This document shows positions 26,100-29,275 of a DNA stretch of 29,986 nucleotides, piece after piece. Source of the stretch: a virus; IMG/VR virus record IMGVR_UViG_3300048927_000365, positions 1 to 29,986 of that record; one strand, given 5' to 3'. A program made the translations under genes and the position numbers. The notes beneath the pieces were generated by a model, which made no database searches, had not been told where the DNA came from, and saw only the letters and a program-made list of their open reading frames with translations. Positions within the stretch are counted from its first letter, which is position 1. Every line of letters begins with the position of its first letter.

Positions 26100-26452
26100 C
26101 AGAATTCCTCAACGGCCCAGCCGCCTCCATCCTTCTTGGGCTTCACCCTCACGGCCAGGAAGCGGAACGGGTACTGCGCCGCGGCGATCTTGATCTTCGC
26201 CCTGGCGTCGTCCTGCCAGAACCCCTTGACCTCGTGGCACTCCATGACGCCATCTGCAGCCAATACGGCGAAGTCAGGCGTGTAGAACGTGTTGTCCGCC
26301 AACCTCAGCTTGAGGCCCTCGAACCGATGCCATTGGATCTGGCCAGTGGCCTGGAGCGCGATCAACCGCTCGCTGTAGGCAGCCTCGGTCCGATTCATCT
26401 GGCCAACCTTCAACCTGCCGAGCGCCTGTAGCCGACGGGTAGCCGCTGCCAT
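26099..26452 (-). CDS. DUF1064-type PD-(D/E)XK nuclease-like protein
   Basis: A 117-residue protein, with the NRTEAAYSERL opening, EGLKLRLADNTFYTPDF, and ECHEVKGFWQDDARAKIKIAA. Pro59-Asp60 and Glu74-x-Lys76 form the PD...ExK active site of the restriction-endonuclease-like fold, as in DUF1064 phage proteins. These are thought to be small nucleases involved in phage DNA processing; substrate unknown. It is coupled on both sides by TGATG junctions to Rz (upstream) and to the 65-residue gene (downstream). Confidence 0.85.
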   Translation of the reverse strand: MAAATRRLQALGRLKVGQMNRTEAAYSERLIALQATGQIQWHRFEGLKLRLADNTFYTPDFAVLAADGVMECHEVKGFWQDDARAKIKIAAAQYPFRFLAVRVKPKKDGGGWAVEEF

Positions 26453-26940
26453 CAGTGCGCTACCTCCGCCCTGTCGGCGGCGATGACTGCTTGGCAGGCG
26501 CGGAGCTGGTCGTCGGCGTCACGGCCGATTCCAATAGCAGGGCCCGCAATCGTGATTCCGAGGTCGGCGGGCGCATCACGTTCGCCGGCGCCGGCGGCAG
26601 CTTCGGACAGGCGATCGGTGTGGCAGGTGGCGAGGTCGTGGCGCAGCCGGACAGTGCCAGCGCGCAGCTCAGCCACAACAGCGTCAGGGACGGCCTGGGC
26701 CGCGGTGCGGTCTTCTTCATGCTTCATTCCGATGGCGGCCAGTTTGTCGGCCTGGGTGTGTTCGGTGGCGCGGGTCTGGTTAACCTGCCGCACTTGCGCG
26801 GCGCTGACGGCGGCCTGCTGCAGGGCTTCCGCGCCTTGAGCCCGATCGCCCCGCCAACACCAGCCGGCCACGAATCCACCGATGAGCAGCAGAGCGGACC
26901 ACATCAGCGCAGCCGCCACCAATGCCAGTGGCCGGCTCAC
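26452..26940 (-). CDS. Inner-membrane spanin Rz
   Basis: A 162-residue i-spanin. Residues about 5-28 are an N-terminal membrane anchor (ALVAAALMWSALLLIGGFVAGW). A periplasmic helical, Gln/Ala-rich domain follows (EALQQAAVSAAQVRQVNQTRATEHTQ). The C-terminus ends with a Cys-containing region and acidic tail (LRACQAVIAADRAEVAH). It starts at a GTG that overlaps the endolysin stop (GTGA). It contains the o-spanin gene in another frame. Together they fuse the inner and outer membranes in the last step of lysis. Confidence 0.85.
   Translation of the reverse strand: MSRPLALVAAALMWSALLLIGGFVAGWCWRGDRAQGAEALQQAAVSAAQVRQVNQTRATEHTQADKLAAIGMKHEEDRTAAQAVPDAVVAELRAGTVRLRHDLATCHTDRLSEAAAGAGERDAPADLGITIAGPAIGIGRDADDQLRACQAVIAADRAEVAH
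26460..26720 (-). CDS. Outer-membrane lipoprotein spanin Rz1, embedded in Rz
   Basis: An 86-residue lipoprotein encoded entirely inside the Rz gene in a shifted frame. It has a lysine-bearing start (MKKTAPRPRP) and a hydrophobic signal SLTLLWLSCALALSGC with a lipobox, lipidated Cys at position 26. The mature region is Pro/Thr-rich (TTSPPATPIACPKLPPAPAN), as is usual for Rz1. The ribosome-binding site is GGAA. Embedded Rz1 is the lambda-type arrangement. Confidence 0.85.
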   Translation of the reverse strand: MKKTAPRPRPSLTLLWLSCALALSGCATTSPPATPIACPKLPPAPANVMRPPTSESRLRALLLESAVTPTTSSAPAKQSSPPTGRR

Positions 26941-27389
26941 CGGCGCCCCTCACACATTGCTCGCTCGGCAGCCCGCCGACGGACCAGCCCCGGCAACTGG
27001 CGACCGCCGGCGTATGTCCAGCGGTCGAACTCCTGGCAGAAGGGCTTGCCCTCATTGAGCAGCCGTACCAGGCTAGACCCGCACGCCGCCCGCGTGCCCA
27101 CGTTGTAGGACCAGCTCAGCACCGCGGCGGCCTGGTGGCGCTCAACCGGCCGGGTGATGCATTTGTCCATTTCCAACGCATGGGCATGGAGACTGGCCCC
27201 CATTACCGCCAGGCATTCGTCGCGCGTGAACTGCTGCTTGAAGCCCACCACCTCGCGGTCGGTCTCCCCAGCACAGGCGGTCTGGATACCTACCGGATCG
27301 CGGTAGGGTTTCTGCTCAACGCCTTCGAACATGACGACGAGCGGCGCGGCAATCAGTACTACGGCGAGAGCAGCGAGCCGGCCTTTCAT
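26937..27389 (-). CDS. SAR-type endolysin (GH24 lysozyme)
   Basis: A 150-residue lysozyme. It has the T4-lysozyme catalytic spacing exactly: Glu22-x8-Asp31-x5-Thr37 (E in MFEGVEQ, D in YRDPVG, T in GIQTACAG). Residues 5-20 are a weakly hydrophobic, Ala/Val-rich segment (LAALAVVLIAAPLVVM) directly abutting the catalytic domain, the hallmark of a signal-arrest-release (SAR) endolysin as in phage 21 and P1. Several cysteines follow. The ATG at 27389 overlaps the holin stop (ATGA), preferred over the longer frame. SAR endolysins are exported by Sec and activated on membrane depolarisation. Confidence 0.85.
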   Translation of the reverse strand: MKGRLAALAVVLIAAPLVVMFEGVEQKPYRDPVGIQTACAGETDREVVGFKQQFTRDECLAVMGASLHAHALEMDKCITRPVERHQAAAVLSWSYNVGTRAACGSSLVRLLNEGKPFCQEFDRWTYAGGRQLPGLVRRRAAERAMCEGRR

Positions 27390-27613
27390 GCCTTCACCCG
27401 CTGCCGCCACTCGCGGACCCACCGCCAAGCCAGATAGCTGATCTGACCGACCAGGTAGATGACGGTGAGTACTACCACCAGCCGATCCAAACTCGCACCG
27501 GCCGCAACTGCGCCAGCGACCGTGACCGGCGGTGCCGCCTTGGCCGCAGCACTCGCTGCGGTGCTGATGATTTCGTCCCGCATGGTTGCCCCGTGGATTG
27601 TCCGGTTCGGCAT
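27386..27613 (-). CDS. Holin, possibly a pinholin with dual start
   Basis: A 75-residue protein starting MPNRTIHGATMRDEI with a strong GGGAGGGG ribosome-binding site. A second in-frame ATG (27583) could give a 65-residue form. The first hydrophobic region is small-residue-rich (STAASAAAKAAPPVTVAGAVAAGAS). The second is a true membrane helix (LVVVLTVIYLVGQISYLAW), followed by a basic tail (RWVREWRQRVKA). The pairing with a SAR endolysin and the small-residue first segment suggest a pinholin of the phage 21 S type. The family name is not certain. It sits at the head of the lysis cassette, downstream of a terminator-like hairpin. Confidence 0.75.
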   Translation of the reverse strand: MPNRTIHGATMRDEIISTAASAAAKAAPPVTVAGAVAAGASLDRLVVVLTVIYLVGQISYLAWRWVREWRQRVKA

Positions 27614-27694: not shown

Positions 27695-27727
27695 AAAGAA
27701 AAAGCCCCGGCTATGGCCGGGGCTTGG
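27695..27727 (-). terminator. Intrinsic terminator upstream of the holin (copy A of repeated hairpin)
   Basis: On the minus strand a 10-bp GC stem (27702-27711 with 27716-27725, 4-base loop) is followed by a T-rich tract (27703 down to 27695). It closes the moron gene at 27748. It also sits where lambdoid phages have tR', between the late promoter region and the holin. A 25-bp part of it (27703-27727) is repeated exactly at 28306-28330. Confidence 0.8.
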
Positions 27728-27747
27728 GTCGTTGCGAAGGACGCGGT

Positions 27748-28251
27748 TTAGGAGCTACGACTCAGAGTTCCCAGGTGGAACCCATTTACGGAACTCAACT
27801 TTCCCCTCCACAGTGAACCATTGTCGGGGAAGGGATCGCCGCCATGCCCGAACACCTTTGCATCCCTGATGTGGATGTAATTCGGCGGCAACCTGTCCGG
27901 ATCATTGAGTTGTTCACCGCGGTAGGCAACACCGTAAGAGTTGATCGATTCACGTACGGATTCGGTCGTCGCTGCGTCCTTGAATCCAAAAGAGGTCGCA
28001 AATGCCTGAGAGAATAATTCAAAGTACGTGTCGCCGCTGATGACCTTTCCAGAGACTTGCGTACCCCCAACGCTGAGCGTGATGCCCAACTCAATCTTGG
28101 GGTCAGAGGTATTCACGATGTTGACGAGGGCTCGCAAGAAGGCGTCGCACCCGATACCATCTTTTTCAAGAAGCGCTTCAATCAGATGCTGTGCGATGTC
28201 AGTTACCGCTTCGGAACTCTCACTCTCATTACCAATCTCGGACATTTCCAT
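27748..28251 (-). CDS. GvpU-like moron protein between Q and the lysis cassette
   Basis: A 167-residue protein with an acidic N-terminus (MEMSEIGNESESSEAVTD). The middle block ELGITLSVGGTQVSGKVISG and the C-terminal block YIHIRDAKVFGHGGDPFP...WRGKLSSVNGFHLG match the pattern I know from the GvpU family (gas vesicle accessory protein, Bacillus type), here certainly without any gas vesicle cluster. It is more AT-rich than its neighbours. It lies between the Q-like gene and the holin and is bracketed by two identical 25-bp hairpin copies. This is the usual layout of a moron. Function unknown; possibly a chaperone-like or membrane-linked accessory. Alternative start M3 at 28245. Confidence 0.6.
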   Translation of the reverse strand: MEMSEIGNESESSEAVTDIAQHLIEALLEKDGIGCDAFLRALVNIVNTSDPKIELGITLSVGGTQVSGKVISGDTYFELFSQAFATSFGFKDAATTESVRESINSYGVAYRGEQLNDPDRLPPNYIHIRDAKVFGHGGDPFPDNGSLWRGKLSSVNGFHLGTLSRSS

Positions 28252-28305
28252 TATCCCAGCATTTTGAGAGCACCAAAGTTATCGCTTGACGGAGCTATTC
28301 GCAAC

Positions 28306-28330
28306 AGCCCCGGCTATGGCCGGGGCTTGG
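28306..28330. repeat. Copy B of the 25-bp hairpin repeat
   Basis: Identical over 25 bases to 27703-27727, in direct orientation 603 bases away, and able to form the same stem. Unlike copy A, it has no T-tract on either side, so it is unlikely to terminate well. Confidence 0.85.
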
Positions 28331-28381
28331 TCTGGATAGTGCCTAGATTGCACTCGTTATTGATGACCTAGGAAGTCATCA
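28331..28381 (-). promoter_or_regulatory. Region just downstream of Q: candidate late promoter / Q site
   Basis: Directly after the Q-like stop lies a dyad GATGAC-7-GTCATC (28362-28380). Late promoters of lambdoid phages lie just downstream of Q, so this is the expected place. I could not find a convincing -35/-10 pair, so only the region is given. Confidence 0.3.
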
Positions 28382-29089
28382 CTACGCCGCGCGCGACAGC
28401 GCCCTCCCGAACTCAGTTGCAGCGGCCTCTTCCAGGGCCCGCATGCCTCCCAGCATCCACGTATAGACCGGCTGCCAGAACCGACTGTAAGCCGAGCAGT
28501 CGGCCCCGATCGCGGAGGCCCGCTTGCGGCCACTCATTGGTTCGAAACCGCTCCCACCGCACTCTTCGCACTTCATGACCCCAAGCCCATCCGCTGCCGG
28601 CTGCGTACGGCCGCCGTCGCATTTCTTGCAGCTGCAAGCTGTCGCCATTTCATTGAACACCGCGCCAGCCAGGACCCCCAGTTGTTCCATCGTATTGTTG
28701 GGCCAAGCCCCAGCGCGCGCGGCCTCCAGTGCAATCTCGGTGCGGCGGAGCTCCTTGCGCTGGCCCTCGGTTACCGATCCCCCGCCCCACCCCATGCTCG
28801 CCTTGGCGATGCCAAACTCGGTCCTGGCGGTGCTAAGCGCGAACTGCTGGCGATTGAACTCGGGCGCGACCAGCCCGATGACACCTTGCCGCAACTGGTC
28901 ACGGCGGCGCGCAGCACTCTCCGGCCACCACAAGGCCTGCAGAAGCTCTCGGCCCAGCCCCTGCTGGACGAAGGCGAGCGCCGCCGCGATGTCCTGGGTG
29001 GTGAGGTCGGGTGTTCCGCCCCGGCCCGTGTCGAATTTGACGGTTGTCGGCCCCATCCGGCTGCCGAGCAGCTCACGTACGTTCCCCAT
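28382..29089 (-). CDS. Q-like late antiterminator with two DnaJ-type zinc motifs
   Basis: A 235-residue protein. Residues 154-181 contain CKKCDGG and CEECGGSG, i.e. two CxxCxG zinc-binding repeats of DnaJ type. Such a zinc element occurs in phage 82-type Q antiterminators, which are of similar length. The C-terminus is helical (YSRFWQPVYTWMLGGMRALEE). The start at 29089 (MGNVRELL) has a strong AAGGGGTAGGGG site; an in-frame extension to 29275 exists but belongs to a separate, frameshifted ORF. It lies directly upstream of the lysis cassette, the position of Q. Q proteins bind near the late promoter and make RNA polymerase ignore terminators, which fits the hairpins spread through this late operon. 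Confidence 0.6.
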   Translation of the reverse strand: MGNVRELLGSRMGPTTVKFDTGRGGTPDLTTQDIAAALAFVQQGLGRELLQALWWPESAARRRDQLRQGVIGLVAPEFNRQQFALSTARTEFGIAKASMGWGGGSVTEGQRKELRRTEIALEAARAGAWPNNTMEQLGVLAGAVFNEMATACSCKKCDGGRTQPAADGLGVMKCEECGGSGFEPMSGRKRASAIGADCSAYSRFWQPVYTWMLGGMRALEEAAATEFGRALSRAA

Positions 29090-29093
29090 ACCC

Positions 29094-29275
29094 CTACCCC
29101 TTGTGCCTTCGTCGATTGATTTCTCGGCGCAGCGCGCGTGCCCGGCGCAGTGCCTGTTCTGCCTCGCGGCGGCTGGCTGGGGCTGTCCACGCCCTCGTCC
29201 ATCGCATCGCGGCATCTCTTGCTGAATGCTGCCAAGCAGCTCCAGCGTCTTGTCGTCGTAGCGGGATAGGTCCAT
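29094..29275 (-). pseudogene. Small helical phage ORF interrupted by a frameshift
   Basis: The sequence MDLSRYDDKTLELLGSIQQ (frame of 29275) reads well but then runs into poor sequence. In the -1 frame, from about 29220, a much better protein continues: ARDAAMRWTRAWTAPASRR, then EAEQALRRARALRREINRR. It ends with TAG at 29094-29096, four bases before the Q start. The two halves together give a plausible roughly 62-residue helical, basic protein of the kind seen near Q genes. No start codon suits the second half alone. A one-base indel, a sequencing error or recoding could explain it. The first half stays in frame with Q. Confidence 0.5.

Follow-up and report, generated by a model that had tools for sequence, protein, structure and literature searches.

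The locus described here raises the question of why a phage carries a GvpU-like gene between its antiterminator and its lysis genes, and how that gene came to lie between two identical hairpins. The window, by which we mean the whole stretch of DNA analysed, is the IMG/VR contig IMGVR_UViG_3300048927_000365 (29,986 bp), and its minus strand carries the Q, lysis, terminase, portal, capsid and tape-measure genes. The reading we favour, which we consider rather probable, is that gvpU forms a moron cassette in a recurrent cargo slot situated at a terminator between Q and the lysis genes. Relatives and homologue loci compared with the window are designated by L-numbers (L003, L007, L052, and so on).

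Gene order and hairpins of the window

Read along the minus strand, on which all features of this region lie, the order is Q, hairpin A, gvpU, hairpin B with its T-run, holin, lysozyme, Rz and endonuclease. The upstream border of the slot is a Q-type antiterminator ORF (28382..29275; phrog_127, E 3.7e-21), which shares 62-88% identity with the Q proteins of relatives. Its downstream border is a holin (27386..27613; phrog_920, E 3.5e-19), followed by an endolysin of the phage lysozyme type (26937..27428; PF00959, E 7.4e-32) and an Rz-like spanin (26452..26940; phrog_2466, E 1.5e-25). The cargo gene (27748..28251) encodes a protein of 167 aa, and its GC content of 52.0%, against 66.7% in Q, 67.4% in the lysis genes and 64.2% in the whole record, agrees with the greater AT-richness noticed in a preliminary description made from the sequence alone.

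The window’s Q matches 19 contigs at 70-90% identity and its lysozyme matches 64 contigs. A Q profile recovers 80 viral contigs together with seven bacterial loci, and since the latter all belong to Stenotrophomonas, the host is probably Stenotrophomonas or a close relative. The GenBank phage collection, searched with both the DNA and the Q protein, yielded no relatives. With respect to five relatives, one base is missing after CAGCAAGAGAT at approximately 29200-29275 of the window (minus strand), through either a natural change or an assembly error, with the result that a short frame upstream (MDLSRYDD...) and the Q frame become one. Because the first 21 codons sit in another frame in the relatives, the true start of Q is probably internal, and the first 21 residues of the called ORF are probably not part of Q.

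A 57-nt leader (28328..28384) containing a covarying hairpin, GATGACTTCCTAGGTCATC, separates stem A from the stop codon of Q. It is followed by hairpin A (28306..28327), a terminator-type stem without a T-run that continues as GTTGCG. Hairpin B and its T-run (27699..27725; stem 27702..27725) constitute an intact terminator-like site before the lysis genes, the only one on the minus strand that the terminator scan detected in the region, and correspond, in position and in the flank TTTTTCTTTGCCCG, to the terminator at the empty sites of relatives. Folded singly, both stems are strong, at -20.5 kcal/mol (z -4.2) and -25.2 kcal/mol (z -5.7).

The 25 bases AGCCCCGGCTATGGCCGGGGCTTGG (plus strand) occur at 27703-27727 and at 28306-28330, in the same orientation and 603 bp apart. 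No other exact direct repeat of the whole window is as long, and when the 3.6-kb region was shuffled 200 times by mononucleotide, chance repeats did not exceed 16 bases. Minus-strand sequence continues as the T-run TTTTTC after the holin-side copy and as TGTTGC after the Q-side copy. The preliminary description had reported identical 25-bp hairpins flanking the gene in direct orientation, with a T-tract on the holin-side copy only, and these observations were confirmed together with their coordinates.

Empty sites and passengers in related phages

We collected 83 distinct leader-plus-stem elements, 82 of them with enough downstream sequence; all element counts refer to distinct sequences and not to independent events, and IMG/VR contigs may be fragments. 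The sequence passes straight from Q to the lysis genes, without cargo, in 56 of the 82 distinct elements, and a run of five T follows the stem in 53 of these 56. A Q-holin interval of 161-169 bp with a single hairpin was found in 33 distinct sequences, the exceptions being L088, with an extra small leader hairpin, and L116, with a variant stem; in most relatives, the empty-site hairpin reads AAGCCCCGGCC(N)AGCCGGGGCTTTTTCTTTGCCCG. Empty relatives thus bear one hairpin, as the preliminary description had predicted. The distance of 57 nt from the stem to Q is unchanged even where the downstream lysis module differs in kind. Moreover, when the 603 bp from one hairpin of the window to the other are removed, 168 bp remain, and the alignment of this interval with natural empty sites extends over 167 bp at 84-87%. 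We are highly confident that the slot and its empty site are real.

The leader motif lies within the 57 nt before the stem in 83 of 83 distinct elements, the motif itself having been the selection criterion. Across 53 distinct leaders, its hairpin displays compensatory changes (C-G/T-A, A-T/G-C and T-A/G-C), with 362 of 371 pair cells standard, and leader and terminator folded together give a z of -4.5. This pattern of covariation suggests that the leader hairpin is possibly a Q-utilisation element or another RNA element. A search of the region against Rfam returned sub-threshold matches only, which we took as chance.

Occupied sites hold cargo of approximately 0.3-1.4 kb, and the passengers turn over from phage to phage. 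PD-T7-4 is present in two lysis-module backgrounds, L029/L037 and L091 (PADLOC, E 9e-80 and 2e-83), a TIR protein in L010 (TIR_2, E 1e-24) and an O-acetyltransferase in L132 (Acyl_transf_3, E 1e-29), while L046 and L090 have phrog_9267 proteins in common. The short ORFs of L003 and L138 were assigned no family name. The 174-aa passenger of L007 (7036-7557 of that locus), which Pfam, PHROGs and PADLOC profiles all failed to match, contains an RNAYCHRK stretch (RxxxxH motif) that appears HEPN-like by eye only. In L142, L146, L148, L151, L168 and L171, the same slot contains a family of proteins of about 179 aa (MNQSPEARYTEQ...), encoded against the direction of Q and without a family match where scanned.

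Cargo at this position has a known counterpart in Stx phages, in which toxin genes lie between Q and the lysis genes. These toxin genes are co-transcribed with the late genes (review PMC8065619). The locus described here resembles them in placing cargo after the antiterminator and ahead of the lysis cassette, but it differs in host genus, in cargo and in its split terminator, and no toxin was identified. Through the anti-phage genes present in relatives (PD-T7-4 in L029/L037 and L091, TIR in L010), it also shows a feature of prophage defence hotspots, PD-T7-4 being a defence gene obtained by functional selection in E. coli (PMC9519451). Like the anti-phage hotspots of P2 and P4 (PMC9122126; PMC9519451), it is a small locus between two conserved phage genes where defence genes, TIR proteins among them, show a high turnover; however, it belongs to another phage family, lies between Q and the lysis genes, holds smaller cargo and is anchored at a terminator, and recognised anti-phage genes are a minority of the passengers identified. 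If our reading is correct, the 57-nt leader and its hairpin could serve as an anchor by which passenger genes are collected from the phages of Stenotrophomonas, where two passengers are known or likely defence genes and the rest represent unnamed candidates.

The GvpU family, its predicted fold and its possible role

The window protein matches the NCBIfam GvpU profile NF041667 with an E-value of 2.4e-21 and 76.2 bits, above the cut-off of 70, over profile positions 1-116 of 117, which supports well the assignment for which the preliminary description had proposed a profile search. In PHROGs, it falls into two families without an assigned function, and Pfam returned nothing useful. Membership of this equivalog profile, above its cut-off, is what it has in common with GvpU of Priestia (Bacillus) megaterium; the setting is different, with a gas-vesicle cluster in that organism and, here, no gas vesicle genes and a host family of Xanthomonadaceae. 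ORF, Pfam and PHROGs scans of the window revealed no gvp gene near gvpU.

NF041667 matches occur in 33 of 297 Xanthomonadaceae genomes, 19 of them above the cut-off, and several of these loci share a common chromosomal neighbourhood that does not adjoin Q. GvpA (PF00741) was found in none of the 33 GvpU-positive genomes, whereas the same search, as a positive control, matched 5 of 349 Pseudomonadota. In the phylum-wide sample, GvpU was detected in 0 of 349 genomes, so the family is patchy rather than common. As judged from these sequence comparisons, the window protein is a member of the GvpU family and not a gas vesicle protein, and it is unrelated to gas vesicles in this phage. A 2024 review describes GvpU as exclusive to Bacillota (PMC10903477), a statement that its presence in Xanthomonadaceae contradicts at the profile level. 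Phase separation of GvpU and clustering of gas vesicles have been reported (PMC10903477, PMC11445434); the clustering could not be confirmed in another study (PMC11223475).

Among viruses, a three-member profile identified GvpU homologues in ten IMG/VR phages of different kinds, while the single window sequence, used as an IMG/VR query, identified no relative. Two P. aeruginosa phages in the GenBank phage collection carry a distant GvpU. A homologue with 45.6% identity occupies the same slot in L052, and in another phage, L179, a gene of the superinfection-exclusion (Sie) type, as judged from its match to phrog_8545 (E 3.8e-31), immediately precedes the homologue. A gene is often found just upstream of gvpU, and we considered a two-gene module; this was rejected, as only two of the upstream neighbours, both terminase small subunits, are related to each other.

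Structure prediction points to an Sm-like fold, which we consider likely for GvpU on the basis of the models. The AlphaFold2 models of the window protein (pLDDT 78) and of the L183 homologue (pLDDT 87) have the same topology, although they are not independent because both rest on the same ten-sequence alignment. The predicted core consists of an N-terminal helix and a bent five-stranded sheet. Foldseek ranks Sm/LSm proteins first for both models, with an E-value of about 0.09 for the window protein and of 2.3e-4, at a probability of 1.00, for L183. In VIA-align, the top 50 matches are essentially Sm/LSm chains only, with Z up to 7.8 for the window protein and 9.2 for L183 (66 residues); the 66-72 aligned residues cover nearly the whole Sm domain. 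Sequence profiles, by contrast, do not support homology between GvpU and Sm proteins: hhalign against three archaeal Sm sequences gave a probability of 0.5% with small profiles, and a PDB sequence search with GvpU returned no Sm chain. Foldseek against viral models gave no E-value below 0.001.

GvpU also differs from Sm/LSm proteins in that some 50 residues, helical in the models, are inserted between strands 2 and 3. As this insertion falls at the place of the RNA-binding loop L3, classical RNA binding is not to be assumed. By eye on the secondary structure, loop L5 of GvpU reads LSSVNG/LSSIDG, with an invariant WRG five residues earlier, and the RG of the Sm2 motif does not appear to align. 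We considered this WRG as the Sm2 RG motif, but the strand order argues against it, and RNA binding is not claimed. In the open literature, the five best-ranked matches for a link between GvpU and Sm, LSm or Hfq included no paper on GvpU, and a prior description elsewhere is possible. The profile results separate the family from gas vesicles, and the predicted fold offers a directly testable property.

What GvpU does for this phage can be approached through the company it keeps. The preliminary description had suggested a role either in the lysogen or in lysis timing. PD-T7-4, TIR and O-acetyltransferase in the same slot point to the lysogen, and nothing we found supports the second suggestion. 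An action in the lytic cycle, through lysis timing or late compartment assembly, would make the place before the holin functional, and two unrelated phages do have a gvpU homologue immediately in front of lysis genes, namely an endolysin gene in L175 and those of a holin and an amidase in L183, a Bacillus-type phage of low GC (35%). However, gvpU is absent from most phages with the same Q-holin arrangement, the slot holds unrelated proteins, other homologues adjoin terminase or tape-measure genes, and GvpU itself has no lysis-related family match, all of which makes a lytic role unlikely.

A benefit to the lysogen, through phage exclusion or another conversion trait, is the likeliest role to judge from this company, although we put its odds at no better than even, and the protein may perhaps act by self-assembly. 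A specific function in anti-phage defence, one of several possibilities drawn from the same company, is doubtful. PADLOC finds no defence match for gvpU itself, and the homologues that adjoin terminase or tail genes also count against such readings. Still more speculatively, GvpU might be a widespread, gas-vesicle-independent and self-assembling family of bacteria and phages with an Sm fold, carried by phages in the split-terminator slot as an anti-phage or stress factor of the lysogen, with the clustering of vesicles as a later use.

The split terminator and a proposed route of cargo entry

Nine distinct elements (the window, L052, L007, L091, L296, L046, L003, L138 and L010) show a split terminator. 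In all nine, the T-run after stem A measures just 1-4, and the lysis genes are preceded by a second hairpin that bears a T-run; in holin-type phages, this hairpin ends 75-90 nt before the holin. With L091 and L296 counted together, these represent at least eight cassettes at the same point. The window and several relatives keep the stem next to Q and have the T-tract towards the lysis genes, in line with the insertion at a terminator that the preliminary description had proposed, and we consider this anatomy well supported. A different class carries its cargo behind an intact terminator (a methyltransferase in L002/L115, the O-acetyltransferase in L132), and in L142-type loci and L029/L037 no second terminator passed the terminator scan.

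The second hairpin is unlike the first in L003, L007, L010, L046, L052 and L138, as exemplified by GGCCCGCCAATGGCGGGCT in L007 and GGCCCCTGACAATGTCAGGGGCC in L046, and near-identical pairs occur only in the window and L091/L296. Since the second hairpin mostly differs, cassettes would usually bring their own terminator. Of the interpretation of the hairpin pair as an insertion scar, the split terminator therefore stands, whereas the 25-bp duplicate does not hold as a general scar. Terminator-to-terminator recombination can fairly be inferred, from the sequences compared, as the route of insertion for this class. Both the window and L052 read GTTGC after stem A, so one old insertion may underlie their gvpU genes; as the two carriers may share it, repeated entry of gvpU into the slot cannot be deduced from them.

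In Q-type antitermination, a terminator after Q is overridden for lysis. The ancestral, empty state would accordingly comprise the structured 57-nt leader, one intrinsic terminator that closes the Q transcript, and the lysis genes. Cargo would enter between the terminator stem and its T-tract, leaving the resident stem behind Q without a T-run, and the second hairpin, joined to the T-tract, would maintain a working terminator approximately 75-90 nt before the holin. Because the only terminator now lies beyond the passenger, the latter could be read with Q while lysis remains insulated. Expression of the passenger would be either joint with Q or driven by its own promoter, and the lysis genes, behind the terminator, would be released late by Q; a scan of the region found no sigma-70-like promoter. 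If correct, this provides a picture of how a moron can enter without disturbing the control of lysis, since a terminator is kept before the lysis genes.

Alternatively, the hairpins could be an ordinary terminator pair produced by local duplication, with a gene simply inherited and no special slot. The hairpins of the window do share the loop CATAG, and because an exact search of IMG/VR with the 23-base CATAG hairpin matched no other contig, A and B would be recent mutual copies, through local duplication, or homogenised. In a Stenotrophomonas genome (L224), moreover, 195 bp comprising leader, stem and T-tract are duplicated in tandem without cargo, giving two terminators in series; the geometry differs from that of the window in having T-tracts on both copies. 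Against duplication as a sufficient account stand the differing cargo at the same point in many relatives, their non-identical second hairpins and the alignment of the empty site through the join, which together render it improbable. That the cassette is a small mobile element targeting terminators is very improbable, for although an 8-bp inverted repeat (28298-28305 / 27731-27738) lies just inside both hairpins (in minus-strand reading, GTTGCGAA adjoins the end of stem A and TTCGCAAC stands 6 bp ahead of hairpin B), it was seen in the window only and not at other occupied sites whose ends were read, no cassette contains a transposase or integrase, and the cassette ends vary from phage to phage.

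Under the favoured reading of a moron cassette in a terminator slot, the locus can be compared with phage morons, which are accessory loci carried by temperate phages (PMC7067206, citing Juhala 2000 and Cumby 2012). As in these, a single gene of foreign composition lies between phage genes and ends at a terminator, and it is absent from close relatives, in which the empty site is intact. The differences are that one resident terminator is split here as a docking point for unrelated passengers and that no own promoter was detected. A second AT-rich dip of the record (600-1100, 51-54% GC) lies at the far end of the late genes and contains a minus-strand ORF (712-1089, 125 aa) without a Pfam match, which represents a further moron candidate.
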